Source: Bordetella genomosp. 2 (lineage in GTDB: Bacteria; Pseudomonadota; Gammaproteobacteria; Burkholderiales; Burkholderiaceae_B). Taken from it: a stretch of DNA of 64,000 nt. Shown here in pieces: positions 26,511-44,201 of the stretch (the first letter of the stretch is position 1; each line of letters opens with the position of its first letter). The stretch lies in NCBI RefSeq assembly GCF_002261345.1, contig NZ_NEVT01000008.1, positions 372,001 to 436,000 on the forward strand, in the 5' to 3' direction. A program made the position numbers and the translations under genes. Below the pieces are notes generated by a model. It did no database searches. It was not told the origin of the DNA and saw only the letters and a program-made list of their open reading frames with translations.

Positions 26511-27580
26511 GCGGCCCGCGCGCCCTGCCGGACACTCCCGCGGCCGCTGCCGCGCGCCGGCAGGCCGGCGGCGACGAGGCGCCGCCGCCGCACCATGTCA
26601 TGGAGCAGGCGGCGCAATGGTATGCGCTGCTGGTCTCGGGCGAAGCCAGCGCGGCCGACCAGGCCCGGTGGCGCGCCTGGCTGGCGGCGCATCGCCAGCA
26701 TCGCCAGGCGTGGCAGTACGTGGAATCGGTCAGCCAGCGCGTGCTGGCGCCGCTGCAGGACACGCCCGACCCGCGCCTGATGGCCAGCCAGGTGTACAGC
26801 GCCCATGCGCGGGTGCGGGCCCGCCGGCGCACCCTGGCCGCGTTGGGCGCCGTGGCCGCCACCGGCATCCTGGGTTGGGCGGGCCGACCCTGGCCGGCGC
26901 TGGAGGACGCCTATATAGCCTGGACCGCCGGCTACCGCACGGGCACGGGCGAGATCCGCGCTTTCACCCTGGAAGACGGCTCGCGCATCTGGCTCAATGC
27001 GGCCAGCGCGGTCGATGCCGATATGGGCGCCGGCATGCGCCGGCTGTACCTGGCGGCCGGCGAGATCCTGGTGGCCACCCGGTCCGGCGACCCGCGCCCC
27101 TTCATCGTCGATACGCCGCAAGGCCGCATGCGCGCGCTGGGCACCCGCTTCACGGTGCGGCGCGAGCCGGACCGCACCTTCCTGGCGGTGTACGCCGGCT
27201 CGGTGGAAATCCGCACCGCCGCCGATGCCGCATCGCGCGTCATCCCGGCCGGCCGGCAAGCCCGCTTCAGCCGCGACGCCATCCTGGCCAGCGCGCCGGC
27301 CGACCCCGCGCGCGAAGCCTGGAGCCGCGGCGAACTGATAGCCTGGGACTTGTCCCTGGCGCAGATCGTCGCGGAACTGGACCGCCATCAGGCCGGGCAC
27401 ATCAGCCTGGCCCCGGACGTGGCGCAGCGGCGCGTGTTCGGCACCTTTCCCCTGCATGACGTGGACGGCGCGCTGGCCATGCTGGCCGAAGCGGCCTCGG
27501 TGCGGGTCCGCCGGCCGCTGCCGTGGTGGATCTCCATCGAGGACCGCCCGCCGCAAGCGCCTGCCGGCCAGGGCTCATAG
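26507..27580 (+). CDS. FecR-type anti-sigma/transmembrane signal transducer
   Basis: A 357-residue inner-membrane regulator. The cytoplasmic part has the DUF4880 motif (AAQWYALLVSGEASAADQARWRAWL, about 35-60, quoted in part as ARWRAWLAAHRQHRQAW). One membrane segment lies near TLAALGAVAATGILGWAG. The periplasmic FecR domain carries FTLEDGSRIWLNAASAVD and VYAGSVEI. The start is taken as TTG at 26507, overlapping the sigma stop (TTGA). The first ATG is 31 codons later (26600), so the N-terminus is uncertain. It relays receptor occupancy to the sigma factor. Confidence 0.88.
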   Translation: MSGPRALPDTPAAAAARRQAGGDEAPPPHHVMEQAAQWYALLVSGEASAADQARWRAWLAAHRQHRQAWQYVESVSQRVLAPLQDTPDPRLMASQVYSAHARVRARRRTLAALGAVAATGILGWAGRPWPALEDAYIAWTAGYRTGTGEIRAFTLEDGSRIWLNAASAVDADMGAGMRRLYLAAGEILVATRSGDPRPFIVDTPQGRMRALGTRFTVRREPDRTFLAVYAGSVEIRTAADAASRVIPAGRQARFSRDAILASAPADPAREAWSRGELIAWDLSLAQIVAELDRHQAGHISLAPDVAQRRVFGTFPLHDVDGALAMLAEAASVRVRRPLPWWISIEDRPPQAPAGQGS

Positions 27581-27581
27581 G

Positions 27582-27620
27582 GCCGGGCGACGGGCGCGCC
27601 CGGGCGGACGGCGTTTTTTT
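27582..27620 (+). terminator. GC-rich hairpin with T7 between FecR and receptor genes
   Basis: An imperfect GC-rich dyad centred on CGGGCGCGCCCG (27591-27602) is followed by TTTTTTT at 27614-27620. It could terminate the sigma/FecR transcript, leaving the receptor to its own sigma-dependent promoter in 27621-27746. I cannot place that promoter securely. Confidence 0.4.
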
Positions 27621-27746
27621 CTGCCGGGCCGGGTTCCGCTTTTTGCCCTCTCGATTGATTTACAGGCAAAGAGGCCCGTATCGGCGCCCCGCGCGCGCCG
27701 ATACAAGCCGGCCACATCATCAGCCACCGTTCGAGAGGAAACCTTC

Positions 27747-30137
27747 ATGTCTCGCTGCCCAGAGCATGCCTCGCATCCAGCCCGCCACGGGATGCGCCTG
27801 GCGGTCTGCACGCTCATCCTGGCCGGCGCCTGCCTGCCGGCGCGCCCGGCCGGCGCGGCCGAGCCCGCTGCGCCCGACGCCGCGACGTCCGCCGGGCAGC
27901 GCCGCTACGACATCCCCGCCGGCCCGCTCAGGACGGTGCTGACGCGCTTCGCCAGCGAGGCCGGCATCTACCTGGCGGGCTCGATCGCACTCGCGGACGG
28001 CAAGACCAGCCCGGGCTTGCGCGGCACCTACACCGTCGCGCAGGGCCTGGCCAGCGTGCTGGCGGGCACCGGCCTGCAGGCGGTCCCCGACGCGGACCGG
28101 CGCTATGTGCTGCGGCCCCTGCCCGTGGCGGGCGTCAGCGAGCTGCCGACCGTCACGGTCACCGGCCAGGGAGAAAGCGCCACCGGGCCGGTCGTCGGCT
28201 ACATGGCGCAGCGCAGCGCCACCGCGACCAAGACCGACACGTCGATCGTGGAAACGCCGCAGTCCATCTCCGTGGTGACGGCCGAGCAGATCCGCGATAC
28301 GGGCGCGAGCTCGCTGGACCAGGCGCTGAGCTACACCGCCGGCGTGCGCACGTCGATCTACGGCGCCAGCACGCGCCTGGACGCGGCCGAGGTGCGCGGC
28401 GTGGAGATCGAGGACATCTTCCTGGACGGCCTGAAGGACCGCGTGAACTTCTGGACCAGCACGCCGCGCGTGGAACCCTACCTGATGGAACGCATGGAAG
28501 TGCTGCGCGGGCCGGCGTCCATGCTGTACGGCCAGGGCGGCACGGGCGGGCTGATCAACAATGTCAGCAAACAGCCCCAGGCCGAGGCGCAGCGCGAGAT
28601 CGGCGTGCAGGTGGGCAACCACGACCGGCGCCAGCTGCAGGCCGACCTGACCGGCCCGCTGACCGAAGACGGCACCTGGCTGTACCGCCTGGTGGCGCTC
28701 GGCCGCGAAAGCGGCACCCAGATGGACCACGGCCAGGACGACCGCCAGGTGGTGGCCCCTTCATTGACCTGGGCGCCCAGCGCCGCCACCGAACTGACCC
28801 TGCGGCTGAAATGGCAGAAAGACCGGGCCAGCGGCGACTCCGGCAGCACCCTGCCCTGGGAAGGCACGATCCTGCCGAATCCGAACGGGCGCATCGCGCG
28901 CCACACGTTCGTGGGCGAGCCCGGCCTGGACCACTTCGACGCCGACAGCTTGCAGGCCGGCTGGTCGTTCCGGCACGACCTGAACGACCAATGGACCTTC
29001 CGGCAGAGCACGCGCTGGACCGACAACCGCACCGACTACGCCGCCTTCGACGTGTATGCGCCCTACCTCGACGCCGAACAACGCGTCCTGGCCCGGGCCG
29101 GCTATTTCTGGAAGCACCGCACGCAGGTCCTGGCGGACGACCAGAACCTGCAGGGCAAGTTCTCGACCGGGCCGGTCGCGCACCAGTTGCTGGTGGGCGT
29201 GGACTTCCTGCGCTACCGGGACTCGGGCTCGGGCGTCGACGACTACACCGGGCTGGCGCCGATCGACGTCTACAACCCGGTCTACCAGGGCAATTACGAA
29301 CCGCCGCCGCGCGAGCCGATCGCCACCAACGGGATCAAGCAGCTGGGCGTCTACATACAAGACGAGATGCGCTGGCGCAACTGGATCCTGCTGGCCGGCT
29401 GGCGCCACGACGAAGTCAAGACCTGGGAAGACGGCGCCGCGGACCGCAATGACCGCGCCGATTCGCTGCGGTTCGGCCTGATGTACGAGATCGTGCCCGG
29501 CCTGCTGCCGTACATCAGCTATGCCGAGTCGTTCCTGCCCCAGGCCAATACCAGCCATGGCCAGCGCCTGCGGCCGCTGCGCGGCAAGCAGTGGGAGGCC
29601 GGCATCAAGTACGAGCCGCCAACGCAGAACTGGCGCGCGTCCGCCGCCGTATTCGACCTGCGCGAAGTCAACCGCACGGTGGAGATCTCCGAAACGGAAG
29701 TCTCGCAGCGCGGCAAGACCAAGAACACCGGCCTGGAGCTGGAATGGATCGGCTCCATCACGCCGCAGCTGGATATCAACGCCAGCTTCACCTATGTGGA
29801 TGTCGACAGCCAGCTGGCCGGCGTGCCCGAGCGCCAGGCCGCGCTGTGGAGCACCTACCGGTTCGCGCTGGGCAGCCTGGACGGCTTCACCGTCGGCGCC
29901 GGGGTGCGCTACGCCAGCGGGTTCGTCGACGATTCCAGCGCCGGCCTCGATGTGCCCCGCACGCCGTCGGCCACCCTGTTCGACGCCATGGTGGCCTGGG
30001 AAAACCGCCATTGGCGCGTCGCGCTCAACGCCAGCAACATCGCCGACAAGGAATACTACAGCCGCTGCTCGGAATGGGGCACGTGCGCGTACGGCGCGGG
30101 GCGGCTGGTGACGCTGACGACGTCCTATCGCTGGTAG
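27747..30137 (+). CDS. TonB-dependent ferric siderophore receptor with N-terminal signalling (STN) domain
   Basis: A 796-residue outer-membrane receptor and signal transducer. A signal peptide ends near residue 38 (AGAA). Residues about 52-125 are an STN domain (RRYDIPAGPLRTVLTRFASE), which contacts FecR. A TonB-box-like LPTVTVTG lies at 133-140. The plug follows (TPQSISVVTAEQIRD, MEVLRGPASMLYGQGGTGG), then a long barrel ending in aromatic Trp (SYRW), as porin-like barrels do. The ribosome site GAGAGGAAA precedes 27747. With the FecI/FecR pair it forms a cell-surface signalling system for a siderophore. BfrZ of Bordetella is the nearest organisation I know, but I do not claim identity. Confidence 0.93.
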   Translation: MSRCPEHASHPARHGMRLAVCTLILAGACLPARPAGAAEPAAPDAATSAGQRRYDIPAGPLRTVLTRFASEAGIYLAGSIALADGKTSPGLRGTYTVAQGLASVLAGTGLQAVPDADRRYVLRPLPVAGVSELPTVTVTGQGESATGPVVGYMAQRSATATKTDTSIVETPQSISVVTAEQIRDTGASSLDQALSYTAGVRTSIYGASTRLDAAEVRGVEIEDIFLDGLKDRVNFWTSTPRVEPYLMERMEVLRGPASMLYGQGGTGGLINNVSKQPQAEAQREIGVQVGNHDRRQLQADLTGPLTEDGTWLYRLVALGRESGTQMDHGQDDRQVVAPSLTWAPSAATELTLRLKWQKDRASGDSGSTLPWEGTILPNPNGRIARHTFVGEPGLDHFDADSLQAGWSFRHDLNDQWTFRQSTRWTDNRTDYAAFDVYAPYLDAEQRVLARAGYFWKHRTQVLADDQNLQGKFSTGPVAHQLLVGVDFLRYRDSGSGVDDYTGLAPIDVYNPVYQGNYEPPPREPIATNGIKQLGVYIQDEMRWRNWILLAGWRHDEVKTWEDGAADRNDRADSLRFGLMYEIVPGLLPYISYAESFLPQANTSHGQRLRPLRGKQWEAGIKYEPPTQNWRASAAVFDLREVNRTVEISETEVSQRGKTKNTGLELEWIGSITPQLDINASFTYVDVDSQLAGVPERQAALWSTYRFALGSLDGFTVGAGVRYASGFVDDSSAGLDVPRTPSATLFDAMVAWENRHWRVALNASNIADKEYYSRCSEWGTCAYGAGRLVTLTTSYRW

Positions 30138-30235: not shown

Positions 30236-31129
30236 ATGGAAGTCATACTGCAGGCCGACACTCCGCTGTCGGACAGCTTCGCCGAGCGCGCCGCGGCGTG
30301 CGTCGGCGCGCCGTCCTACACGCGGGTGGACGAGGGCCAGGTACAGCTGCGGGCCACCGCTCCCGCAGCCGCCCAGGGCGGATGGCGCGACGCCCTGCTC
30401 GCGCTGTGCCAGCCACAGCGCGCCGACGTGGCCATGCTGCCGCAACGGCGCAGCCTGGCCGACTATCGGCTCATCGTGTTCGACATGGACTCCACCCTCA
30501 TCAATGTCGAATGCATCGACGAACTGGCGGCCTGCGTCGGGCGCGCGGCCGAAGTGGCCGCCCTGACCGACGCGGCCATGCGCGACCCGTCCATTCCCTA
30601 CGACGACAGCCTGCGCGCGCGCGTGCGCTGCCTGCGCGGGCTGCCGCTGGCGGACGTGCATCGCACTTATGAGCAGCGAGTGGCATTCAATCCCGGCGCG
30701 CGCGAGCTGGTCGCGCATGCGCGCGGCCTGGGCCTGCGCACCGCGCTGGTGAGCGGCGGGTTCGCCGAATTCGCCGAACCCGTCCGCCAGGCCCTCGGTA
30801 TCGACTACATGGTCTGCAACCGCTTGCAGGCCGCCGACGGCCTGCTTACCGGCGAACTGGTGGGCACATTGATCAACGCGCGCGAGAAAGCCAACGCGCT
30901 GCAGGCGCTGTGCGACCAATTGCACTGCCCCACCGCTGACGCCATTGCGGTGGGCGACGGCTCGAACGACCTCGGGATGATGGCATTGGCGGGTGTGGCG
31001 GTCGGTTATCGCGCCAAGCCGGTGGTGCGCCAGCGTGCCCACGTGCTGATCGACCATGGCAGCCTGCAGCGCCTGGCAAGCATGCTGGGCGGTCAGGCGG
31101 CTTCGGGCCGCGGCACCGAGTCCCGGTAG
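30236..31129 (+). CDS. serB: Phosphoserine phosphatase
   Basis: A 297-residue HAD phosphatase catalysing the last step of serine synthesis. Motif I is DMDSTLI at residues 83-89 with nucleophile Asp83, motif II has LVSGGFAEF (Ser in VSGG), and motif III/IV is AVGDGSNDLGMM. SerB-specific VECIDELAA and RVAFNPGARELVAHA-like segments are present. Residues 1-75 form an ACT-like or degenerate N-terminal part, as in other long SerB proteins. Its 3' end overlaps the convergent LacI gene by 37 bases. Confidence 0.95.
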   Translation: MEVILQADTPLSDSFAERAAACVGAPSYTRVDEGQVQLRATAPAAAQGGWRDALLALCQPQRADVAMLPQRRSLADYRLIVFDMDSTLINVECIDELAACVGRAAEVAALTDAAMRDPSIPYDDSLRARVRCLRGLPLADVHRTYEQRVAFNPGARELVAHARGLGLRTALVSGGFAEFAEPVRQALGIDYMVCNRLQAADGLLTGELVGTLINAREKANALQALCDQLHCPTADAIAVGDGSNDLGMMALAGVAVGYRAKPVVRQRAHVLIDHGSLQRLASMLGGQAASGRGTESR

Positions 31130-32109
31130 ACGAATTCGCCGGGAAACACGCGCATCTCCGGCTCGCTGGCCGAGCCCAGCAGCAGCTCCAGCGCGTTCTC
31201 GATCATGACTTCCACCGGCTGGCGGATCGTGGTCAGCCGGTACGCCTCGCGCGACGCCACCGGGTGATCGTCGAAACCCAGCACTTGCACGTCTTCGGGG
31301 ACGCGGCGTCCCAGGCCGAAGCGCAGCGCGTCCATCGCGCCGGCGGCGATCTCGTCATCGGCGCAGAACAGCGCATCGACGCCGGGATGCCGCTTCAGCA
31401 TGGCGAGCGCCGCCTCGCGCCCCCAGTCGTAGGTGTACTCGCGCTCCACTAGCGCGATCGGCGAGGTGCCGCGCTCGGCCAGCGCCTCGACGAAGCCCCG
31501 CTTGCGGTCGCGGTTGGTCGAGACTTCCGGGATGCCGCCGATGAAGCCGATCTCGCTGGCGCCGTTGGCCAGCAGGACGTCGGCGGCCATGCGCCCGCCC
31601 CGCACGTTGTCGCACGACACCGAATGTGCGCCGCCGACGCTGGAATAGCGATTGAACTGCACCACCGGCACACCGCGGCGCGCGCAGAGCTCGGCGCCGT
31701 GGGAAGACAGCGTGGCAGTGGTAATGATGACGCCGCGCACCCGGTACTGCAGCACCAGCGCCATCATGTCGTCCACGGTATGCGGAGGGGTGGCATTGAA
31801 CAGCAGCGCCTGCAGCCCGCGCGTATGCAATTCGCGGGTGATCTGCTCGAGCACGACCGGGTACCAGGGGTTGGTGATATTGGCCATGACGATGGCCACG
31901 ATGTCGAACCGCCCGCTGCTCAGGCCGCGCGCCAGCGGATCGGGCCGGTAGTTCACCATCTCCACGGCCTTGATGATGCGCTCCCGGACCTCTTGCGACA
32001 AACTGCCATGGCCGGAGATGAAGCGTGATACTGCGGCCTGCGAAACACCCGCGAACCGGGCGACGTCTTTCTGGGTAGGAGGTTTTTTCTTCACGACGAG
32101 ACAGCGCAA
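31093..32109 (-). CDS. LacI family transcriptional regulator of the dimethylformamidase-like operon
   Basis: A 338-residue LacI/GalR-type repressor. The helix-turn-helix is TQKDVARFAGVSQAAVSRFISG (about 12-33; recognition helix SQAAVSRFI). The hinge is PLARGLSSG, and a periplasmic-binding-protein-like effector domain starts at VAIVMANITNPWYPVVLEQI. It overlaps the end of the dimethylformamidase-like gene by 19 bases, so it is the last gene of that operon. Two copies of a perfect palindrome with the central CG step favoured by LacI proteins stand before the operon, probably its operators. A GTG at 32094 is an alternative start. Confidence 0.92.
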   Translation of the reverse strand: MRCLVVKKKPPTQKDVARFAGVSQAAVSRFISGHGSLSQEVRERIIKAVEMVNYRPDPLARGLSSGRFDIVAIVMANITNPWYPVVLEQITRELHTRGLQALLFNATPPHTVDDMMALVLQYRVRGVIITTATLSSHGAELCARRGVPVVQFNRYSSVGGAHSVSCDNVRGGRMAADVLLANGASEIGFIGGIPEVSTNRDRKRGFVEALAERGTSPIALVEREYTYDWGREAALAMLKRHPGVDALFCADDEIAAGAMDALRFGLGRRVPEDVQVLGFDDHPVASREAYRLTTIRQPVEVMIENALELLLGSASEPEMRVFPGEFVYRDSVPRPEAA

Positions 32110-34277
32110 CGGGTGTAGCGCCGCACGCAGTTCTGCAAGATGCGGGATACCCCGTTCTCGTATTGGTTATGGAACAGGCTACCCAGGAATGTAATCGATC
32201 CCGAGGCAAACAGCCCGCCGCCGCCGGCCGTCGTGCCGCACACCATGTGCGCGCAAATGCCCTCATAGGGGCGGGGCAGCCCGGCCGCCATGGTCCAGGT
32301 CAGGATCTCCTCGGGCACGGTCTTGAAGGACGGGCCGTGCCCCTGTGATACGGCGATCACGCGCAAGTTCTCGTCGCTGCCCAGGTCGAAGGCCCGCTGG
32401 TCCAGCTCGAAACCCGCCGCGCCGCCGCCCGACAGGCCGTAGTCGCCGATGCGCGCCTCGGCCACCCCCTCCAGCACCCAGGCCACGTCGGGATGCGTCG
32501 CCTCCTCGGTGCGCACATAGTAGCTGCCTTCGAAGTTGCCTTGCACCGCGAAGCCGACGCCGCCCACCACCTGGGGCGCCCGGCCGTTGCGGCGCCACAT
32601 GCCGCCGTACTCGCCGTCGAGCTGGTTGTAGTATTCGCCGGGCTCGCTGGCCCACGCACGGATCCCGCCCTCGGCGCGCCGTATTTCCATGACGTGCGGC
32701 AACGCGGCGTGGCGGGCGATCTTCCAGTAGAAGCCGTTGGCTCCCATGTACATGAAATTGCCGCCGCCCTCGCGGTAGGCCAGAATGGCGTCCAGCATGC
32801 GCCGGGTATGGTACTCGGGATGCGAGCCGGTGATCACCAGGTCATAGCCGCGCAGCGCCTCGACACCCTGCTCGTCCAGGTCCTCGTCGGTAATGACGTC
32901 GAAGGCATGCCCGTGCACGCGCAGCCAGTCCGTCAGGTGCGAGTCCGCCACGAAATGACGCAGGCCCGAGCCGCGCGGATCGGCGAACGTCAGGTAGCCC
33001 GGGCGCATCGTCAGTATGGGACGCAGGCGCGACGACAGGCTGATGCCCGAGCCGTCCGAATGCCGGTTGTAGGTCGACTTGCCGTACAGCGTGACGCGGT
33101 CGGGGTTGTGGGGATACGCTCCCCAGGCCGCCACGCGCTCGGCCAACGCTCCCTCGAAATTGCCGCGCGCATGGTTGGCATATGCCAGGTACGTCAGCGT
33201 GGAAGCCAGGTACAGGATCTTCCGGCGCGGCGCTGCCCGGCCGGGCAGCACGAAGAACGGGATAGTGTCGGCCCCTTCGGCGCTGCGCACCTCCAGCCCA
33301 TAGACGGCCGACTCGGCGTCGTCGGGAATGCGCAACGACACGCTGGTCTGCCACCCGCAGTCAGACAGGTCGTCGTCGTGGAAATGGATCGCGGCATATT
33401 GTTCGGGCGCGGCCTTCCAGTCCATGACCAGGCCGGTCCAGGCCGAAGAACGCACGGCGCGCACGGGCACGTTGACCAGCGCGAGGGCATGCCCCGGGTT
33501 GAGCCGGTCGGGCACCCGTTGCTCGGTCATGGCGTCGCCGAAATGCCAGTGCGCGGCGACTTCGAACGCCCCGTCGCCGCGCGCCAGCGCCAGCTCCGGA
33601 CCTTCGAACAGGCCATTGCAGCAATGCGCCGGATGGCCCTGCCAGATCGCCGCCACGCACAAGGTGTCCAGCGCCGCCGCGAGCGGAGCCCCGGGCACCT
33701 CGAAGGTGGTTTCCCGGTCCGCCGCGCGCGCGCCGCGACGGGTATCGGCGAGGCGCACGCGCACCCGGCCGGCGGCCACATCCCAGGTGGCCGTCACCAT
33801 GGTGTAGCGGCGGCTGGGCAAGCGCGGCCCATCCGGGGCCTCGCCGCCCACGGCCTGGCCATCGGCCAGCACGCCGCAGGCCAGCCGGCCGCGCCGCAGG
33901 CCCAGCCATACCCCTTGCCGGCCGGCGGCATCCTGCAGGCACCACAGCACTTGCGTCGCGTCGCGGTCCAGGGTCGGCTGCACCGCCAGGCGCACCCGCA
34001 GCGCCGTCGCGTCGCCCAAGGATGGCACGGCGCCCCATGCGCAGGAACCGGGGTACACGGGCTGCTCCTTGCCCGGATACCGGCCTTCCACGCCCATGGC
34101 GACCGGCGCCAGCTTCATGCCCGGCCCGGCGGGGTTCGGGTCGCAACAATCGATGCGCACCACGCGCGCCTCAAAGGGCAAGTCGGCGCGCGAGCTGACC
34201 TTGAATTCCAGCGTATCCCCCGGCCGGCCGCTCAGCGGCGTGACATAACCCACGATCGCAGGCACATACTCCATCAT
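32091..34277 (-). CDS. N,N-dimethylformamidase large-subunit-like hydrolase
   Basis: A 728-residue protein of the N,N-dimethylformamidase beta-subunit family. That enzyme is an amidohydrolase with an iron centre held by two tyrosines and a carboxylate. Residues about 80-250 form a LamG/ConA-like domain, and the C-terminal half is a glutamine-amidotransferase-like fold. Candidate iron ligands by motif are Tyr363 or Tyr366 (TYLAYANH), Tyr403 (STYNRHSDGSG) and Glu488 with adjacent His486 (GSHPEYH). These keep about the spacing known for the Paracoccus enzyme (Tyr399, Tyr440, Glu521). No small-subunit gene is visible next to it. Its place in an importer/aminotransferase operon suggests hydrolysis of an imported amide. 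Confidence 0.82.
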   Translation of the reverse strand: MMEYVPAIVGYVTPLSGRPGDTLEFKVSSRADLPFEARVVRIDCCDPNPAGPGMKLAPVAMGVEGRYPGKEQPVYPGSCAWGAVPSLGDATALRVRLAVQPTLDRDATQVLWCLQDAAGRQGVWLGLRRGRLACGVLADGQAVGGEAPDGPRLPSRRYTMVTATWDVAAGRVRVRLADTRRGARAADRETTFEVPGAPLAAALDTLCVAAIWQGHPAHCCNGLFEGPELALARGDGAFEVAAHWHFGDAMTEQRVPDRLNPGHALALVNVPVRAVRSSAWTGLVMDWKAAPEQYAAIHFHDDDLSDCGWQTSVSLRIPDDAESAVYGLEVRSAEGADTIPFFVLPGRAAPRRKILYLASTLTYLAYANHARGNFEGALAERVAAWGAYPHNPDRVTLYGKSTYNRHSDGSGISLSSRLRPILTMRPGYLTFADPRGSGLRHFVADSHLTDWLRVHGHAFDVITDEDLDEQGVEALRGYDLVITGSHPEYHTRRMLDAILAYREGGGNFMYMGANGFYWKIARHAALPHVMEIRRAEGGIRAWASEPGEYYNQLDGEYGGMWRRNGRAPQVVGGVGFAVQGNFEGSYYVRTEEATHPDVAWVLEGVAEARIGDYGLSGGGAAGFELDQRAFDLGSDENLRVIAVSQGHGPSFKTVPEEILTWTMAAGLPRPYEGICAHMVCGTTAGGGGLFASGSITFLGSLFHNQYENGVSRILQNCVRRYTRCAVSS

Positions 34278-34320
34278 GATTCCTCAAATTGATGACCAGG
34301 CGGGCCGCGGCGGCCGCCGC

Positions 34321-35022
34321 TCAATGCACCGCCAGATACTGTTCCAGCCGGGCGGGATCGGCGCGCGCGACGCCGGCATCGAACCGATCCGCCACGCTGC
34401 CGTTCTCGAGCACCACGATGCGGTCCGCCAGCTCGACCGCCATCTGCAGATTCTGCTCGACCAGGACGATGGTCAGGTCGTCGCCCTTGAGGGCGCCGAG
34501 CGCCTCGCTGACGGCCTTCACCATGATCGGCGCAAGACCCTGCGATGGCTCGTCGAGCAGAATCAGGCGCGGCCCCATGGCCAGCCCGCGCGCCATCACC
34601 ATCATCTGTTGCTGGCCGCCGGAGAGCTCGCTGCCTTTCTTGTCCAGCAATTCCTCGAGCAAGGGGAAAAGCGCCACCAGCCGGTCCAGGGGATAAGCGG
34701 AGCCCTTGCGCCACCCCAGCATGATGTTCTCGCGCACGGTCAGCAGCGCGAACGGATCGCGGGTCTCGGGCACCAGGGTCAGGCCCAGGCGCGCAATATG
34801 GTGCGGCGGCAGCGCGGCGATGTCCCGCCCGGCGAACAGTACGCGCCCGCGCGCCGGCGGGGTCAGGCCCATGATGGAGCGCAGCGTGGTGGATTTGCCG
34901 GCGCCGTTGCGGCCCAGCAGCGCCACCACCTCGCGCTCGCCCACCTCGAAAGAAACGCCATGGACGGCCTGGCTCTGGCCGTAGTAGGTGTCGATGTCCT
35001 GTACGCTCAATAGCATGCTCAT
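34321..35022 (-). CDS. Branched-chain-type ABC transporter ATP-binding protein LivF
   Basis: A 233-residue LivF-type ATPase. It has Walker A GRNGAGKSTTLRSIMGL, signature LSGGQQQMMVMARGL, and Walker B LILLDEPSQGLAPIMV; the LAP segment is diagnostic of LivF. It overlaps LivG by four bases. As part of the five-component HAAT importer in this operon it would carry an amide or amino-acid-like compound, not necessarily branched-chain amino acids. Confidence 0.94.
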   Translation of the reverse strand: MSMLLSVQDIDTYYGQSQAVHGVSFEVGEREVVALLGRNGAGKSTTLRSIMGLTPPARGRVLFAGRDIAALPPHHIARLGLTLVPETRDPFALLTVRENIMLGWRKGSAYPLDRLVALFPLLEELLDKKGSELSGGQQQMMVMARGLAMGPRLILLDEPSQGLAPIMVKAVSEALGALKGDDLTIVLVEQNLQMAVELADRIVVLENGSVADRFDAGVARADPARLEQYLAVH

Positions 35023-35765
35023 CGTCCGAAGTAAGCCCGGTGCACGTCTTCATTGGCGGCGATCTCGGCGGCGGTGCCGCTGGCGATCAGCGCCCCCCTG
35101 TTCATCACATGGATACGGTCGGAAATTTCCATGACCACGTTCATCTTGTGCTCGATCATGATGATGGTGTAGCGCGCCTTGATGTCCTGGATGAAGCGCT
35201 TGACGCGCTCGGTCTCGCGCTGCGACAGGCCGGCGGTCGGCTCGTCCAGCAACAGGATCTCCGGCCGGGTGGCCAGCGTGACGGCGATCTCCAGCAGGCG
35301 CTGGTCGCCATATGAAGTCTGCTTGGCCGGCAAGTCGCGATAGCCCGACAGCCCCAGGTCATCGAGGATGCGCGCGGCCTGTTCGCGCAGGTCGCCATAG
35401 GCGTGCACGGGCTTCCAGAAGCCGGTCCGGCCCATGCGGGCAGCCCGGTAGACCGCCAGCCAGACGTTTTCGAGAAAGCTCAGGTCCAGGTAGACACTGG
35501 AAATCTGGTAAGAGCGGCCGACGCCGCGCCGCGCGATCTGGTGCGGCTTGAGATGGCTGATGTCCTCGCCCTTGAGCAGGATGCGGCCGCCGGAGATCGG
35601 CAGGTCGCGCGTCAGCAGGTTGAACAGCGTGGTCTTGCCCGCGCCGTTGGGCCCGAGGATGCTGTGCAGGCGGCCGGCCTCGAAGCCGAGCGACAGGCGG
35701 TCGATGACGGTGTTGGCGCCGAACCGCTTGCTGACGCCATCGGCATGCAGCACGTAGTCGCTCAT
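35019..35765 (-). CDS. Branched-chain-type ABC transporter ATP-binding protein LivG
   Basis: A 248-residue LivG-type ATPase. It has Walker A GPNGAGKTTLFNLLTRDL, the LivG insertion GVGRSYQISSVYLDLSFLENV, and Walker B ILLLDEPTAGLSQRE. The signature is reduced to TSYGDQRLLEIAVTLA instead of LSxGxQ, a common LivG variant. Start 35765 overlaps the LivM stop. The reading frame is open upstream but only as a shadow of the permease gene. Confidence 0.93.
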   Translation of the reverse strand: MSDYVLHADGVSKRFGANTVIDRLSLGFEAGRLHSILGPNGAGKTTLFNLLTRDLPISGGRILLKGEDISHLKPHQIARRGVGRSYQISSVYLDLSFLENVWLAVYRAARMGRTGFWKPVHAYGDLREQAARILDDLGLSGYRDLPAKQTSYGDQRLLEIAVTLATRPEILLLDEPTAGLSQRETERVKRFIQDIKARYTIIMIEHKMNVVMEISDRIHVMNRGALIASGTAAEIAANEDVHRAYFGR

Positions 35766-36742
35766 TTGCCAGCCTCCCCGGCCCGCGCGGCCTTGCCGCC
35801 CAGCCGCGCGCAAAGACGTTCGAACAGTTCCACCACGCCCCCCTTCAGGAACAGCACGACCAGGATCACGAACACGCCGAACAGCAAGGGCCAGCGCGCC
35901 CAGATCAGGCTGAAGAAGCCTTGCAGCCAGATGAAAATGGCGGCGCCGAAAATCGGCCCCAGCATCGACGAAATGCCGCCGATCACGACCATGAACACGG
36001 CGTTGCCCGAATTGGCCCAGGACACCGCGTCGATGGGCATGATGCGGTAGAGCATGGCGAACAGCGCGCCTGCCAGGCCCGACAGCCCGCCCGCTACCAC
36101 GAACGCCAGCAGCTGGGCGCGATAGACCGAATAACCCAGCGAGGCAGTGCGCCGGGCATTCTGGCGGGCCGCTTCCAGCACCAGCCCGAGCGGGCTGTGC
36201 GTCAACCGGTAAAGCAGCAGGAACACCAGCAGGAAACACACGGCGGTCAACACATAGAACGCGTGGTGGTCGCCCAGGTCGAGGCTGCCCAGGCCCGGCA
36301 GCCACAATGCCGGACGACCGATGCCGCCCAGGCCATCCTCGCCGCCGGTCACCGACCGCCAGCTGTAGGCCAGGTAGTAGATCATCTGGTTGAAGGCGAA
36401 CGTGAGCATCATGAAATAGATGCCGGTGCGGCGGATACTCATGGCCCCGATTGCCGCCGCCAGCGCCGCGCCGGTCGCCACTGCCAGCGCCAGCCCCGCC
36501 AGCAGCGGCGCGTCGGTATGCACGAACAGGAACCCGGCCGCGTACCCGCCGGCGCCAAAGAACGCCGCCTGGCCGAATGAATAGAGCCCGGCCCGGCCCA
36601 CCAGCAGATTGGTCGCGAGGGCGAAAATACTGAAGATGAGGATCTCGGTGGCGATGTTCACCGGCAGCGCCAGCGGCGCAGCCACCGCGATGGCCACCAC
36701 GCTCGCCCCCTGCGCGAGCGCCCGTTTTTGCGTGTCGCGCAT
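35762..36742 (-). CDS. Branched-chain-type ABC transporter permease LivM
   Basis: A 326-residue permease with about eight to nine membrane segments. The family core is NLLVGRAGLYSFGQAAFFGAGGYAAG, then VLEAARQNARRTASLGYSVYRAQL and GGISSMLGPIFGAAIF. The start at 36742 shares a base with the LivH stop (TGATG arrangement), giving tight coupling. It forms the channel with LivH. Confidence 0.93.
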   Translation of the reverse strand: MRDTQKRALAQGASVVAIAVAAPLALPVNIATEILIFSIFALATNLLVGRAGLYSFGQAAFFGAGGYAAGFLFVHTDAPLLAGLALAVATGAALAAAIGAMSIRRTGIYFMMLTFAFNQMIYYLAYSWRSVTGGEDGLGGIGRPALWLPGLGSLDLGDHHAFYVLTAVCFLLVFLLLYRLTHSPLGLVLEAARQNARRTASLGYSVYRAQLLAFVVAGGLSGLAGALFAMLYRIMPIDAVSWANSGNAVFMVVIGGISSMLGPIFGAAIFIWLQGFFSLIWARWPLLFGVFVILVVLFLKGGVVELFERLCARLGGKAARAGEAGK

Positions 36743-37602
36743 CAGCGTTCTCCAAACAGGCCTTGCGGCCGGATCATGATGGTGGCGACCATCGCCACGT
36801 AGATCAGCACCGTACTGGCTTCCGGCACGAAGACCGACGAAACGCTCTGGATCACGCCGACGATGAGCCCGGCGGCGATGGCGCCGTAGATCGAACCGAG
36901 CCCGCCGATCACCAGCACCACGAAGGCGATCGCCAGCATGTCCTGTCCCATCGTGGCATTGGCGCCCAGCAGCGGCAGTACCAGCCCGCCCGCCAGCCCG
37001 GCCAGGCCGGACCCGAGCGCGAACCCGGCCGTCAACAGCCGGCCCACGTCGACGCCCAGGCATTGGGCCATTTCGCGCTTGTCGATGCCCGCGCGGATCT
37101 GCGAACCGATGCGCGTGCGTTCGATCAACAGATAGACTGCCGCGATCACCAGCCCCGCCATCACCGCGTTGAACACCAGATACCGCGGCAGGTAGGTGAA
37201 GCCCAGGTCGAACGCGCCCTGCAGGATCTCGGGCGGACTCATGCTCAGGCCTACCGTGCCCCAGGCGATGATGATGAGTTGTTCGAGAATGAGCGCAATG
37301 CCGAACAGGAACAACAACTGGTACAAGTACGACGAGGCCATCAGCCGCGCGACCCCCAGTTTCTCGACCAGCGCGCCCAGCAGGCCGGGCGCCACGAAGG
37401 CGCAGACCAGCGCCAGCGCGAAAGGCGCGCCGGCCTGGTGCGCCGCATAGCAGACATAGGCCCCCAGTGCGTAGAACGCGCCGTGCGCGAAGTTCGGAAC
37501 GTTGAGCAGCCCCTTGATGATGGACAGCCCGAAAGCCGTCAGTGCGTATAGCAGCCCGATGGCCAGGCCGTTGATCAATTGCGCCGCGAGTAAAGTCGTC
37601 AT
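36742..37602 (-). CDS. Branched-chain-type ABC transporter permease LivH
   Basis: A 286-residue LivH-type permease. The N-terminal LINGLAIGLLYALTAFGLSIIKGLLNVPNFAHGAFY region is diagnostic (quoted in part: NVPNFAHGAFYALGAY). Near the C-terminus is FVVLVIGGLGSIYGAIAAGLIVG. It follows the binding-protein gene by 24 bases. Confidence 0.94.
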   Translation of the reverse strand: MTTLLAAQLINGLAIGLLYALTAFGLSIIKGLLNVPNFAHGAFYALGAYVCYAAHQAGAPFALALVCAFVAPGLLGALVEKLGVARLMASSYLYQLLFLFGIALILEQLIIIAWGTVGLSMSPPEILQGAFDLGFTYLPRYLVFNAVMAGLVIAAVYLLIERTRIGSQIRAGIDKREMAQCLGVDVGRLLTAGFALGSGLAGLAGGLVLPLLGANATMGQDMLAIAFVVLVIGGLGSIYGAIAAGLIVGVIQSVSSVFVPEASTVLIYVAMVATIMIRPQGLFGER

Positions 37603-37626
37603 GAGGCGGTCCGGGATGGGCTGCGC

Positions 37627-38847
37627 TCAGGCGGCACGCTTGCACTCGTTGAGTTCGGCCGGCTGGGGTTTCTCGCCAGTGGCCACGATGGTGGCCAGGT
37701 CGAACTCATCCGCCATGTCCTGCTCCGCCTTGCACTGGATCACGTAGTACGGCCTGACGGTCTGGTGCGTGTGCGCATCGATCGAAGTCGCGCCGAAGAT
37801 GCTGTCGAAACTCATTCCCTCCAGCGTCTTGGCCACTGCTTCCACCTCCACGCTGTTGGCCCGCTCCATGGCCAGCAACAAGGTGCGGAACGAATCGTAG
37901 CCGTAGGCCGACGCATACGACGGCGCCGAGCGGTGGGCCTTCATGTAGCGCGCCACGAACGCCTTGTTCACCGGTGTGTCGATCGTGTGGTAGTAGTTCA
38001 GGCCCAGGATCATGCCGGCGCGCATGCTTGCCGACAGTTCTTTCATCTGCTCGACCTCCAGCGTCCACGGCCCCACCAGTTGCACCTGCTTGACCCCGAA
38101 ACTGTGGAACTGGCGCACCGCCGAGACGGCATCCGCGCCCGAGGTGAGCAGCAGGATGATGTCGGGGCGGGTCGAGAACGCCCTGGTGAAGTATTGCGTG
38201 AACTGTCGCTCGCCGGACGGATGGTTGGCGTTGCCGACCAGTTCCAGGTCCAGCTCCTTGGCGGCGACCTCGGTGTAATGCAGCAGCGACTGGCCGAAAA
38301 CATAGTCGGCGGTGATGGTGTAGATCTTTTTCTTGTCGGGCATGTGCTGCTTGACGTATTCCAGCGTGGCCCGCAGGGCCGTATACGCGTGGCACGACCA
38401 CTGGAAGGTATACGGGCTGCAACGCGCCCCGGTGAAGTCCTCGGAACCGCCCGCCGCGTATTGCAGCACCTTTTCCTGGCGGGCGACCTCGAGTTCGGCC
38501 AGGCCTACCGCGCTGGAAAAATTGCCGCCGAAGTAGCGCAGTTTGTCGGACGCGACCGCCTCGGTCAGGCGTCGCACGCCCACCGCGGGCTTGCCCTCGT
38601 CGTCGCGCGAGATCAGGTTGATCTTGTGGCCCAGTATCGTGCCGCCACGCTCTTCGACCGCCATCTGCGCCCCCTTGAGCACCAGCGGCCCGGTGTACGC
38701 GAACGTGCCGGTGTTCTGCGAAATGACGCCCATCGTCAATGTGCCGGCGCCGTCCTGCGCCCACGACAGGCCGGCCAGCGACGAGCCGGCCGCCGCCAAT
38801 CCCGCCTTGAGCAAGGCGCGGCGCGAGAGATCGGGTTGGAAGTCCAT
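37627..38847 (-). CDS. ABC transporter substrate-binding protein (LivK/AmiC-like), Tat-type signal
   Basis: A 406-residue type-1 periplasmic binding protein. The N-terminus SRRALLKAGLAAAGSSLAGL has a twin-arginine motif, so export may go through Tat. The fold begins TLTMGVISQNTGTFAYTGPLVLKGAQMAVEE (quoted in two blocks: MGVISQNTGTFAYTG and LKGAQMAVEERGG). These proteins bind amides, amino acids or urea-like ligands. It precedes LivH directly and follows the class III aminotransferase gene by 45 bases. The ribosome site CAGGGGAAC is good. Confidence 0.93.
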   Translation of the reverse strand: MDFQPDLSRRALLKAGLAAAGSSLAGLSWAQDGAGTLTMGVISQNTGTFAYTGPLVLKGAQMAVEERGGTILGHKINLISRDDEGKPAVGVRRLTEAVASDKLRYFGGNFSSAVGLAELEVARQEKVLQYAAGGSEDFTGARCSPYTFQWSCHAYTALRATLEYVKQHMPDKKKIYTITADYVFGQSLLHYTEVAAKELDLELVGNANHPSGERQFTQYFTRAFSTRPDIILLLTSGADAVSAVRQFHSFGVKQVQLVGPWTLEVEQMKELSASMRAGMILGLNYYHTIDTPVNKAFVARYMKAHRSAPSYASAYGYDSFRTLLLAMERANSVEVEAVAKTLEGMSFDSIFGATSIDAHTHQTVRPYYVIQCKAEQDMADEFDLATIVATGEKPQPAELNECKRAA

Positions 38848-38892
38848 ATGCGTTCCCCTGAGTTTTCTTCGGTGATGGAGGCAAAGTGCCAG

Positions 38893-40218
38893 TTACAACG
38901 GCAGCTGCATTTCCCGCGCGAACGACCGCAGTCCGGATTCCAGCCGATCGAGCAGGTCCTGCAATTCGGTCTCGGTGATCGTCAATGGCGGCGCCACCAG
39001 CGCCGCATTGTTGTAGGGCGCGATGCCGGCTCCGTAGACAATCAGCCCGGCATCAAAACAATGGGATACGAACCGGCTATTGGCTTGCCGGGCGGCGGGC
39101 AGCGGCTCGCGCGTGGCCGGGTCCCCGACGAACTCGAATCCCCACAGCAGGCCGCGACCGCGCACGTCGGCCATCCAGGGATAGCGCGCCGACAGGGCCC
39201 GCAGCCCTGCTTCGAGGCGGCGCCCCTGTGCCGCCACGTTGTCCAGCACCCGGTGCGACTTCATGTAGCGCACCACCGCCAGGCAGACCGCCGCACTGAG
39301 CGGGTTGTTGCTGAACGTGTGGCCGAACGGAGCCGCCTTGCTGCCGGCGCGCGAGGCGTCCACCAGCTTGTCGCGGAACAGTACCGCGCCCATCGGGGTG
39401 TAGCCGGATGTCATGCCCTTGCCGGTGGCGATCATGTCCGGCACGATGCCATCGTGCTGGCAGCCGAACCACTCGCCCGTGCGCCCCATGCCGGTGATGA
39501 CTTCATCGGCGATCAGCAGCACGTCGTGGCGGTCGCATATCTCGCGCAATGCGCGCAGGTAGCCCACCTCGGGCGTCAACGCGCCGCCGGCCGCACCCAC
39601 CACCGGCTCGACGATAATGGCGGCCACCCGTTCCGGGCCGTGCTCGCGCAGCACGCGCTCCCATGCGGCGGCGCCGTGCTGCCCGGCATCCTTGCCCTCA
39701 AGGGGGAAGCGGTAGGGATACGGCGGCGGCGCCACCGCGAAGGTGTGCAACAGCGTGCCGTAATCGGCGCGGCGCGCCGAGTGTCCCGACATCGACAGCG
39801 CGCCCATCGTCATGCCGTGATAGCTGATCCGCCGGCCAAGGATGTCCGTCTTGCCGGGCTGGCCCTGCTCGCGCCAGTACTGCAGAGCGGCCCGCATGGC
39901 GAGTTCGGTCGCCTCGGAGCCGCTGTTGACGAAGAAGGCGTGATTGAGGTCGCCCGGCGCCAGCCCAGTCAGCTCGGCGGCCAGTGTCTCGGCGGCCTCG
40001 CTGGTGAAATGTGAACGGTAGGTGTAGCAGATACGGCTTGCCTGGCTGGCCATGGCCTGCAGGACTTCCGGCACGCCGTGCCCGATCGAAACCGTCATGG
40101 CGCCGCCCGAGCCGTCGAGATACTGCCGGCCCGCGTCATCGTAGATGTACACGCCCTCGGCGCGCGCCGCCCTGGGCGGCTGCTGGTCTAGGGTCTGCTT
40201 CAATAAGGCGCTAGTCAT
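38893..40218 (-). CDS. Class III pyridoxal-phosphate aminotransferase
   Basis: A 441-residue omega-aminotransferase-type enzyme. It has YLDGSGGAMTVSIGHGVPEV near the N-terminus, FFVNSGSEATELAMRAALQYW, PLP-binding Asp238 in LLIADEVITGMGRTG, and Schiff-base Lys267 in ATGKGMTSGYTPMG. The family transfers terminal amino groups of amines, beta-alanine or 2-oxo partners. It is the first gene of the eight-gene importer/hydrolase operon. No Shine-Dalgarno precedes the ATG because the operator-like palindrome occupies that place; the message may be leaderless or very short-leadered. Confidence 0.93.
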   Translation of the reverse strand: MTSALLKQTLDQQPPRAARAEGVYIYDDAGRQYLDGSGGAMTVSIGHGVPEVLQAMASQASRICYTYRSHFTSEAAETLAAELTGLAPGDLNHAFFVNSGSEATELAMRAALQYWREQGQPGKTDILGRRISYHGMTMGALSMSGHSARRADYGTLLHTFAVAPPPYPYRFPLEGKDAGQHGAAAWERVLREHGPERVAAIIVEPVVGAAGGALTPEVGYLRALREICDRHDVLLIADEVITGMGRTGEWFGCQHDGIVPDMIATGKGMTSGYTPMGAVLFRDKLVDASRAGSKAAPFGHTFSNNPLSAAVCLAVVRYMKSHRVLDNVAAQGRRLEAGLRALSARYPWMADVRGRGLLWGFEFVGDPATREPLPAARQANSRFVSHCFDAGLIVYGAGIAPYNNAALVAPPLTITETELQDLLDRLESGLRSFAREMQLPL

Positions 40219-40231
40219 GAATACGTATTCA
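40218..40231. promoter_or_regulatory. LacI-type operator candidate O1
   Basis: TGAATACGTATTCA, a perfect 14-base palindrome with a central CG, begins at the start codon of the aminotransferase. Its 12-base core recurs at 40339-40350, with centres 120 bases apart. A repressor bound here would block initiation. Paired sites allow looping. Confidence 0.65.
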
Positions 40232-40575
40232 CATTAAGTTCGAAAAAAGGTGGATGAACTCCACCTGCGATAACCCAGCACTACGAACGCTTTGCAACAG
40301 ATCCGGCGCAAACCGGAGAGCATGAATCTGCCGTACTTGAATACGTATTCTGTTTGGTTTCCACCCTCCGCTGGAATTGGGGTTTTCCCCGTCACGCGCC
40401 GCGCATCCCCGCGCGGCGGGTTTTACTGCGCCGCCAGACTCGGGCAATATGGAAGCTCCTCCGTGGCGCCCCCCTGGCTTCGGCTCGAGAGCATGAATGC
40501 ATGGGGCGCCCGCCCATCTGGTCCGCGGCGATCTGCTCCGGTAGTGCCCGGCCTTTCATCTCAAGGAGTACATCC
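40219..40575. promoter_or_regulatory. Divergent intergenic region, aminotransferase operon / ppiC
   Basis: These 357 bases contain no convincing gene. The two palindromes at 40218-40231 and 40339-40350 belong to the minus-strand operon control. The stretch after 40351 must hold the ppiC promoter, which I cannot place exactly. AAGGAG at 40563-40568 is its ribosome site. Confidence 0.45.
40339..40350. promoter_or_regulatory. LacI-type operator candidate O2
   Basis: GAATACGTATTC is an exact second copy of the 12-base palindrome at 40219-40230. It lies 120 bases further upstream of the aminotransferase start. I see no other exact copy in the window. Confidence 0.65.
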
Positions 40576-41711: not shown

Positions 41712-42770
41712 ATGACCCGAAAACTCACCAGCCTGGATATCGCGCGGCTGGCTGGCGTATCGCAAAGCACGGTATCGCGCGTCGTCCGCCAGTTGCCGAA
41801 CGTGGACGAGCAGACGCGCGAGCACGTGCTGCAGGTCATCCGCAAGCACCGCTATGCGCCCAGCGCGGCGGCGCGCTCCATGAAGACCAACCGCAGCGGC
41901 AACGTGGCGGTAGTGGTGGCCAACCTGGACAACCCGCTGTACCCGGCGCTGCTGCACCACCTGGTGGAGCAACTGGCCCGGCGCGGCCTGCGCACGACCG
42001 TCTGGGAGCCCGCCGGCGACCTGGACGCCGCCACCGCGTGCGCCATCGCCGAGAGCGCGGCGGACGGCGTGATCTTCACCACGGCGGTGGACGCGGCGCA
42101 ACTGCAGCACGAAGCCATCGCCCAGTCCAAGCCGGTCATTCTGATGAACCGCAGCCTGTCGGCCAAGCTCTTCGATGCGGTCGTCAGCGACAACCTGGCG
42201 GGCGGCAGGCTGGTGGCGCGGTACTTCATCGACGCGGGCCGGCGCAACATCGGCCTGATCTCGGGACAGTCGCCGGCCAGCACCATCCAGGAGCGCGAGC
42301 GCGGCTTCCTGCGAGAGCTGTCCCGGCACGGCAAGGCCCTGCGGTGCCACGCCTCGACGCTGCGCTTCGATGCGTTCAACTACGACAACGGCTACCGCGC
42401 CGCGCGCGACCTGCTGGCGCGCCATCCGGACATCGACGCGCTGTTCTGCAGCAATGACATCCTGGCGATCGGCGCGCTGGATGGGGCGCGCGCCGCCGGC
42501 CGCGCCATCCCGGACGACTTGTGGGTGGTCGGCTACGACGACATCCCCATGGCCGGCTGGGACGCCATCGGCCTGACCACGGTGCGCCAGCCGCTGCGGG
42601 ACATGACCGCGCGGGCGGTCGAGCGGCTATGCCAGCGCATGGCCCAGCCCGACCTGCCGCCGCGCACGGTCAAGCTGGCGAACGAGCTGGTGCCGCGCCG
42701 CTCAACCCGCCGGGCGGCTGGCCCGGCGCCGGCGCCTCAGCCACCCAGCATGGCATTGAACGTCACGTAG
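41712..42770 (+). CDS. LacI family transcriptional regulator of the dioxygenase/transporter operon
   Basis: A 352-residue repressor. The helix-turn-helix is TSLDIARLAGVSQSTVSRVV (about 6-25), the hinge AAARSMKTNRSGN, and the effector domain starts at VAVVVANLDNPLYPALLHHL. It is convergent with the Nramp-like gene, overlapping its end by 34 bases. Its target is probably the dioxygenase-transporter operon, whose promoter at 45114-45131 carries a near-palindrome with the TACGTA core used by LacI-type sites. Confidence 0.92.
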   Translation: MTRKLTSLDIARLAGVSQSTVSRVVRQLPNVDEQTREHVLQVIRKHRYAPSAAARSMKTNRSGNVAVVVANLDNPLYPALLHHLVEQLARRGLRTTVWEPAGDLDAATACAIAESAADGVIFTTAVDAAQLQHEAIAQSKPVILMNRSLSAKLFDAVVSDNLAGGRLVARYFIDAGRRNIGLISGQSPASTIQERERGFLRELSRHGKALRCHASTLRFDAFNYDNGYRAARDLLARHPDIDALFCSNDILAIGALDGARAAGRAIPDDLWVVGYDDIPMAGWDAIGLTTVRQPLRDMTARAVERLCQRMAQPDLPPRTVKLANELVPRRSTRRAAGPAPAPQPPSMALNVT

Positions 42771-44083
42771 GATCCCCAGATCGCCAGCAGCGTCAACAGC
42801 ACCAGCACGATGGTGTGCAGCTTGTTGCCCGCCAGGTCGCCCATCAGGTCCTTGCGGTTGATCAGCACGATCAGGCCGATCGACACCAGCGGCATCAGCA
42901 CGATTTGCGCGGCGTTGACGAATACCGTCAGCCAGATGAAGCCCGGCATGCCGGGAATGGCCCAGACCAGCGGCAGGATGGCGACCAGGAAATAAGCCAC
43001 CCGGAACGCCGGATCCTTGCTGGGCGCATCGCGGTATTTTTCCTTGCGGGCCGGCGCGACGCAGTACAGGCACTCCATGGCCATCTTGGGAAAGCCGTGC
43101 GCATAGCCGATGACGGAACTGAAGCAGGCGCACAGCACGCCCAGGTAGATGATAATCTCGCCCGCCCGGCCGGCCACCTGGCCCAGCAGTTGCGCCAGGT
43201 CGTTGAAGTCCTCGATGGTGATGCCGCGCGGATGCAGCACCTCGGCGCCCATGACCCAGACGGCCAGGTCCAGCACGATGATCACGAAGATGCCGAACAA
43301 CAGGTCATAGCGCTGCACGCGCCGGTGCTCGGGGCGGATGTAGCCCTTTTCCTTCATGAAGGTGGGGTACAGCAGGTTGGCCAGCGAGCCGCCCACCGCG
43401 CCGATCAGCGACACCACGATGACGACGGCGCCGAACGCGCCGACCTGCGTCGGCGTCTCGAAGGCGAACGTGCCCGTCACGATGGCGCCGACGTCGGGAC
43501 GCGCCATGATGGCCCCGCCGACCAGGCTGGCGGCCAGCACCACCAGGATCACTTTCTCGACGGTCTCCAGGTAGCGGTAGACCGCCTTGCCGGTGATGGC
43601 GACCGCCGCGATCACGGCGAACACGCTCCACAGCAGCACCGAGCCGCTTTCCCCGGTAAGGTGGTACAGCGCTTCACCCGAGCCCCGGATGGTGTACGAC
43701 TCATAGAAGTGGCCCAGCACGATGCCCCCCACGCCCAGCAGGATGGGGTAGTACTTCCAGACCAGCGCGTAGCCCTCGAATATGGTGTGCCCGCGCACAT
43801 TCATCAACTGGTAGTGGGCGATGATGCTGACCAGGAAATAGCGCACCAGCAAGGCCAGGGCCAGCCCCCACATGAGCGCGTAGCCATAGTGCGCGCCGGC
43901 CATGGCGTTGTCGACCAGGTCGCCCGCCCCCAGCCAGGTCAGCACCAGCACGATGCCGGGCCCGAACGATTTCACATAGCCCCAGAACGAAGTCGGAATC
44001 GGCGCGCCCATGGCGGACGCGGCGACGCCCGCACTCCGGGCGGGCAAGGCGGGCTGATGCACCGCCGACGGATCTGCACTCAT
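42737..44083 (-). CDS. Nramp-family-like transporter lacking canonical metal motifs
   Basis: A 448-residue membrane protein with about eleven hydrophobic segments and an Nramp-type start (GPGIVLVLTWLGAGDLVDN). Canonical Nramp proteins have DPGN in TM1 and MPH in TM6. Here TM1 reads GAGDLVDN and TM6 reads SLIGAVGGSLAN, so the usual Mn/Fe ligands are absent. It may carry another cation or an organic solute. It follows the TfdA-like dioxygenase gene by 118 bases on the same strand, behind GGGGAGAG. The pairing suggests it imports the dioxygenase substrate or iron, both inference. Confidence 0.85.
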   Translation of the reverse strand: MSADPSAVHQPALPARSAGVAASAMGAPIPTSFWGYVKSFGPGIVLVLTWLGAGDLVDNAMAGAHYGYALMWGLALALLVRYFLVSIIAHYQLMNVRGHTIFEGYALVWKYYPILLGVGGIVLGHFYESYTIRGSGEALYHLTGESGSVLLWSVFAVIAAVAITGKAVYRYLETVEKVILVVLAASLVGGAIMARPDVGAIVTGTFAFETPTQVGAFGAVVIVVSLIGAVGGSLANLLYPTFMKEKGYIRPEHRRVQRYDLLFGIFVIIVLDLAVWVMGAEVLHPRGITIEDFNDLAQLLGQVAGRAGEIIIYLGVLCACFSSVIGYAHGFPKMAMECLYCVAPARKEKYRDAPSKDPAFRVAYFLVAILPLVWAIPGMPGFIWLTVFVNAAQIVLMPLVSIGLIVLINRKDLMGDLAGNKLHTIVLVLLTLLAIWGSYVTFNAMLGG

Positions 44084-44201
44084 GATTGTCTCTCCCCATG
44101 TCGTTATGATGCGGTGCAGCGCCATGGCGTGCTCGCATGCGAGCACCGCCCGTGGGCGAGCCATGGCGGCGCGGGCCGGCCCGCGCGGTCCTGGCGGCGC
44201 G

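Follow-up and report, generated by a model that had tools for sequence, protein, structure and literature searches.

The 64,000-nucleotide stretch of Bordetella genomosp. 2 DNA analysed here (contig NZ_NEVT01000008.1, positions 372,001 to 436,000; hereafter the window) carries an eight-gene operon that probably serves the inducible scavenging of an N-acylated amino acid, which would be imported, cleaved and transaminated by its products. The substrate is most likely not of the ordinary alpha type and could be, for example, an N-acyl-beta-amino acid. All eight open reading frames (ORFs) that a sequence-only reading had assigned to this place on the minus strand were present, and each was confirmed by Pfam. 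The genes and the two putative operators are as follows, in window coordinates.

38893–40218, minus strand: operon gene 1, class III (pyridoxal phosphate, PLP) aminotransferase of 441 amino acids (Pfam PF00202, 333.7 bits, cut-off 30.5)
37627–38847, minus strand: periplasmic binding protein, Tat-type, of an ATP-binding cassette (ABC) importer for amino acids/amides (HAAT) (Pfam PF13458, 266 bits)
36742–37602, minus strand: importer permease, LivH/UrtB-like (Pfam PF02653; UrtB model 177.6 of 250.3 bits needed)
35762–36739, minus strand: importer permease, LivM/UrtC-like (Pfam PF02653; UrtC model 124.3 of 296.2 bits needed)
about 35019–35765, minus strand: importer ATPase, LivG/UrtD-like (Pfam PF00005 and PF12399; LivG 191.6 of 362 and UrtD 191.5 of 304.1 bits needed)
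about 34321–35022, minus strand: importer ATPase, LivF/UrtE-like (Pfam PF00005; UrtE model 218.1 of 285.8 bits needed)
32091–34277, minus strand: amidohydrolase of the dimethylformamidase (DMFase) fold, 728 amino acids, predicted N-acyl amino acid deacylase (PF20254 DMFA2_C)
31093–32109, minus strand: LacI-family regulator, overlapping the end of the hydrolase gene by 19 bases (Pfam LacI and Peripla_BP_3)
40218–40231, strand not applicable: proximal putative operator TGAATACGTATTCA, a perfect 14-base palindrome at the aminotransferase start (pattern scan)
40338–40351, strand not applicable: distal putative operator, differing from the 14-base palindrome at one position and lying 120 bases upstream of the proximal site (pattern scan)

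The intergenic distances are 45, 24, 2, -4, -4, 43 and -19 bases in operon order, and because of them the eight genes are likely to lie on a single transcript. The host genome (5.02 Mb) contains one match to DMFA2_C and 13 matches to class III aminotransferases.

The hydrolase scored 281 bits against PF20254 (cut-off 27) and is a member of that family. It had been called dimethylformamidase-like, a label that holds for the Pfam domain, the fold and the ligands but not for its nearest relative. The best PDB match by sequence was the N-acetyl-(R)-beta-phenylalanine acylase (565 bits, about 42% identity), presumably from a Burkholderia strain, whereas DMFase scored 355 bits at about 32% identity. 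The predicted fold matched both solved enzymes closely, and the acylase best. In a quick tree one branch (57 rows, support 97) united the acylase with the hydrolases of the cassettes, and dmfA2 formed a separate branch with L041, L042, L043 and L044 (support 100); the end branches of both reference proteins are long and their placement is less sure. Full-length sequence and fold match, together with the shared branch, place the hydrolase in the acylase group, with this long acylase branch to be kept in mind. Judged by sequence and predicted fold, it is closer to an N-acyl-beta-amino acid acylase than to DMFase, and the DMFase label is misleading. To our knowledge, only two activities are known for the DMFase iron-hydrolase fold.

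The metal site was located by alignment with DMFase, whose ligand and catalytic positions were taken from PMC7686228. Residues Y399, Y440 and E521 of parDMFase aligned to Y366, Y403 and E488 of the hydrolase, and these three, together with H486, N514 and E624 placed in the same way, are invariant in the aligned relatives. In the family alignment Y366, Y403, E488, H486 and N514 were kept in all 97 rows (93 distinct proteins), and Y363 in only 90. The alignment thus assigns the metal site to Tyr366, Tyr403 and Glu488. Tyr363, which had been offered beside Tyr366 among the candidate Tyr/Tyr/Glu iron ligands, is not a ligand by this evidence. As regards the coming together of these residues in a structure model, the predicted fold matches the two solved enzymes and the ligands align by sequence.

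In Paracoccus aminophilus (pAMI2) the small-subunit gene dmfA1 lies directly upstream of the large-subunit gene dmfA2. When dmfA1 was searched against the window and the cassettes, no significant match was obtained, and nothing was found in the whole host genome at E <= 1, a search that had no positive control and is limited in sensitivity. The spaces flanking the hydrolase gene are too short for a small-subunit gene, in agreement with the earlier remark that none stands beside it. Neither the window and cassettes nor the genome thus shows the small subunit encoded beside the large one as in DMFase, and a two-subunit enzyme of that type was rejected. Among distant relatives, L042 has a weak dmfA1-like match (E 0.03) near 11245–11463, directly upstream of the hydrolase gene, and L043 has a 102-amino-acid ORF (11192–11500) directly upstream of its DMFase-like gene, related to an ORF in L044; L042 and L043 may possess divergent small subunits.

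Conservation of the operon was followed in a sample of 250 genomes of the same family, with E <= 0.001 as the threshold for a hydrolase match. Matches were found in 22 genomes and full-length orthologues in 10, the source genome included. The nine non-self orthologues were 57–59% identical, and the best segments in the other twelve genomes reached at most 47%. With thresholds of E <= 1e-80 for the binding protein and E <= 1e-105 for the aminotransferase, both occurred in exactly the same 10 genomes and in none of the remaining 240. The nine non-self loci agree in gene order, each having on a single strand the aminotransferase, the binding protein, both permeases, both ATPases, the hydrolase and LacI. 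At least 560 places in species genomes encode relatives of the hydrolase (one scan), and the best 80 named loci of these served as a wider set. The full cassette was present in four of the 80, three from Achromobacter and one from Herbaspirillum autotrophicum. Because three of the nine family loci share their hydrolases with the three Achromobacter loci, the distinct cassettes number eleven. The LacI proteins of the ten others are 63–70% identical to that of the window. Within the source genus seven listed genomes gave no match and the eighth (G156) only more distant relatives; in an order-level sample 15 of 399 genomes had any hydrolase match, the source included, and the others were at most 44% identical. 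The operon is inherited as a unit. Genes for HAD-type phosphatases (cluster 14) recur near the LacI end in L029–L032, L034 and L037, and by eye the ORF that ends at 31129 in the window looks like a SerB-type HAD protein, which suggests that the cassette sits at an old chromosomal site.

The regulator carries a helix-turn-helix and a periplasmic-binding-like domain, and a palindrome with a central CG precedes the operon, features by which it can be assigned to the LacI family; LacI operators are typically palindromic with a central CG. In all 11 cassettes the region preceding the first gene has two copies of the palindrome, neither with more than one mismatch to GAATACGTATTC, and this pair is likely to represent the LacI operators. 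Their spacings are 120, 120, 121, 121, 127, 130, 130, 131, 131, 132 and 133 bases. Apart from the outlier of 127, these fall close to two groups separated by one turn of DNA (0.009 with a uniform model), which is only a hint of helical phasing because the genomes are related. The more distant Salipiger operon L112 has a single copy. In several loci the proximal copy can be read by eye as part of the coding start of the aminotransferase; since this reading fails in the window, L035 and L075, the conservation of the copy is not accounted for by coding. At up to one mismatch, the 14-base pattern was found at three places in the host genome, namely the operator pair and a site inside an ORF that reads by eye as a TRAP binding protein, and no further LacI target was found genome-wide at this stringency. 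A site with two mismatches (C2:95009) lies between ORFs that appear by eye LacI-like and amidase-like.

The importer had been described as Liv-type. Pfam supports an ABC importer of the HAAT type; among the NCBIfam models, however, those of the urea transporter were best for four of the five subunits, and one ATPase tied with LivG. A urea transporter (Urt) was nevertheless rejected, as all five subunits fell below the cut-offs (UrtE 218 of 286, UrtD 191.5 of 304, UrtC 124 of 296, UrtB 178 of 250 and UrtA 93 of 493 bits). The binding protein matched PDB 4maa best (223 bits), and the twin arginine at its N-terminus is kept in all 11 cassettes, in line with the proposed Tat type. The aminotransferase, which scores above its Pfam cut-off, has by motif Lys267 and Asp238, which we take to be its PLP-site residues, and it belongs to class III.

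From these parts we infer the steps of import, deacylation and transamination, as well as the direction of transport and the order of the reactions. The binding protein would capture the N-acyl amino acid outside the inner membrane and the ABC importer would bring it in. The hydrolase would hold one iron on Tyr366, Tyr403 and Glu488 as Lewis acid, with Glu624 as the likely base and Asn514 as oxyanion helper, and, needing no small subunit, would cleave the amide bond. The class III aminotransferase could then strip the amino group from the released amino acid, giving an oxo acid for general metabolism. LacI would bind the two operators, spaced about 120 bases, upstream of the first gene and keep all eight genes, its own among them, repressed until the substrate or a product appears. 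The earlier scheme, in which an imported amide is hydrolysed and the released amine transaminated, fits the gene order, the co-occurrence and the shared operator pair, but a dialkylformamide-type substrate is unlikely because a transaminase requires a primary amine.

Neighbourhoods of the wider hydrolase family were counted in 75 of the best 80 loci, leaving out the four full cassettes and L097, whose hydrolase was missed by gene calling. Class III aminotransferases, for which such neighbourhoods were to be checked, were enriched next to the hydrolase, occupying 10 of 144 adjoining positions against 5 of 620 at a distance of three to ten genes (Fisher p 5e-5, with related loci unmerged, both strands included and L142 contributing on both sides). 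In six of these loci, among them L112, L082, L084 and L094, hydrolase and aminotransferase share a strand. In L112 the aminotransferase is 58% and LacI 48% identical to those of the window. The aminotransferases of L082, L084 and L094 are 38–39% identical and match PRK07483 best in NCBIfam. L097 has a binding protein, permeases and ATPases of 52–58% identity and an aminotransferase of 42%, placed before the hydrolase; a nitrilase-family gene lies in between, with N-carbamoylputrescine amidase as best model, below cut-off. An aminotransferase that is GSAM-like, as labelled by family models run on L038 and L040, adjoins the hydrolase in L039 and L040 and lies three genes downstream in L038. The L040 hydrolase scored 660 bits against the acylase. 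We do not claim these GSAM-like proteins as beta-phenylalanine aminotransferases; the best PDB matches in L040 were 6k8h and ForI, and 4ao9 came fourth. Amidase genes of the hydantoinase/carbamoylase family come after LacI in Achromobacter and after the aminotransferase in L039 and L040, and passed TIGR01879 (cut-off 204) with 252 bits in L074, 208 in L039 and 212 in L040. These amidases (L074:13278–14561, L040:12229–13536 and L039:6369–7691) are of one subfamily, with PRK12891 as best model (below cut-off), and adjoin the hydrolase–aminotransferase set in two different arrangements, that of L074 and that of L039/L040.

Several observations weigh against the proposed pathway. A scan for sigma-70-type promoters gave none before the operon, its one site being intragenic and no more than expected by chance. 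The chemistry is defined by two solved relatives, of which the acylase is only 42% identical. The family of the aminotransferase is broad, and the cut-off of its best NCBIfam model, NF005375, was missed (498 of 535 bits needed). Most of the hydrolase relatives examined have no adjacent aminotransferase, and the gene most often seen close by is that of an SBP_bac_5 (Opp/Dpp-type) binding protein, no more than two genes away in 19 of 75 loci. Furthermore, four Rhizobiales loci (L076, L077, L079 and L080), with hydrolases 52–54% identical and inside the supported cassette clade, lack an aminotransferase and point to imino acids, so that beta-amino acids are not singled out. The L079 operon encodes a trans-3-hydroxy-L-proline dehydratase (611 bits, cut-off 540), LhpI (424, cut-off 400) and a SolA-like oxidase (298, cut-off 257). 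It also has genes for a GNAT protein, a dehydrogenase of the malate/lactate type and permeases accompanied by a family-3 (amino-acid type) binding protein, and most of these gene clusters are common to the other three. The four loci, from Agrobacterium, Shinella and Phyllobacterium, have the hydrolase in an apparent trans-3-hydroxy-L-proline catabolic operon. N-acyl imino acids are tertiary amides, as is dimethylformamide.

Other explanations were weighed against the same evidence. The hydrolase may cut another type of amide (an N-carbamoyl compound, a lactam, an N-acylated diamine or an omega-amino acid amide, for example); the freed omega-amine or polyamine would then go to the aminotransferase. 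This fits the urea-type scores of the importer, the nitrilase-family protein of L097, the carbamoylase-family amidases beside other family members and the aminotransferase itself, which matches omega, putrescine and polyamine transaminases (255, 248 and 245 bits) nearly as well as its best PDB match (268 bits); but the nearest relative of solved structure bears the name of an N-acetyl amino acid acylase and related operons carry amino-acid catabolic genes, and we consider it unlikely. Less plausible still, the genes may share promoter and inheritance while the aminotransferase serves another step, for example on the importer ligand directly, and the hydrolase deacylates a by-product. Sequence cannot reveal the order of reactions, and many relatives have the hydrolase without an aminotransferase; the co-occurrence of hydrolase, binding protein and aminotransferase, and the recurrence of hydrolase–aminotransferase adjacency in other arrangements, speak against it. 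A DMFase-like enzyme for small N,N-dialkylamides (dimethylformamide, dimethylacetamide) agrees with the Pfam domain, ligand residues and fold but is very improbable, for no small subunit was found in window or genome, the DMFase large subunit is reported to be inactive by itself (PMC7686228), the hydrolase branches away from DMFase, and a dialkylamine is not transaminable, which would leave the conserved aminotransferase with no role.

The observations are best explained if the family frees amino or imino acids from N-acyl compounds and the next step varies by operon. We put forward, with slightly less than even confidence, a wider view in which DMFase-fold iron hydrolases are widespread, overlooked N-acyl amino acid deacylases in varied amino-acid catabolic operons (with class III transaminases of two types, trans-3-hydroxyproline genes or carbamoylase-type amidases), and the cassette is an importer–deacylase–transaminase pathway dedicated to a natural, as yet undescribed N-acyl (beta-)amino acid, with a private LacI operator pair that may loop DNA. 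The conserved coupling of the hydrolase to one importer, transaminase and regulator makes the natural substrate testable, because the compounds recognised by the binding protein, the enzyme and the repressor should be linked. The family is also a possible source of enzymes for producing single-handed amino acids.

Other features were noted near the cassettes. Seven loci (L030, L031, L034, L073, L074, L075 and L078) have a histidinol-dehydrogenase-like gene on the opposite strand upstream of the aminotransferase, and several of them also a second LacI-like gene upstream of the cassette. A different palindrome, of the TGCAT-CGTATGCA type, lies upstream of the cassette in four of the loci examined. 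In the window, an ECF sigma factor, a FecR-like regulator and a TonB-dependent siderophore receptor stand in a row at 25950–30137 as a FecIR-type iron uptake locus. A second LacI-family gene, a Nramp-type transporter gene and an adjoining TauD-family dioxygenase gene occupy 41712–45224, and the palindrome TGACTACGTAATCA lies at 45116–45129.

Each part of the operon belongs, by its sequence, to a known family. The open-licence PMC literature gave no account of this importer–hydrolase–aminotransferase gene set and no paper on the N-acetyl-(R)-beta-phenylalanine acylase, and the open-licence literature on dimethylformamidase described no such operon in titles and abstract openings. The UrtABCDE urea/amide HAAT importers resemble the window importer in giving the best NCBIfam scores for four of five subunits and differ in that all subunits remain far below the curated cut-offs. 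Paraburkholderia transaminates free beta-phenylalanine (PMC6150868), a catabolism that shares with the proposed pathway a transaminase acting on a free beta-amino acid; its abstract names neither importer nor acylase. The DMFase large subunit (PDB 6lvb; dmfA2 of P. aminophilus pAMI2) has the same Tyr, Tyr and Glu ligands, His/Asn/Glu residues and fold, but its small subunit is encoded directly upstream and it stands in a separate tree branch at about 32% identity. The N-acetyl-(R)-beta-phenylalanine acylase (PDB 8i5a, 8huy and 8i59) differs from the window hydrolase in sequence, at about 42% identity, and is like it in full-length homology and overall fold.

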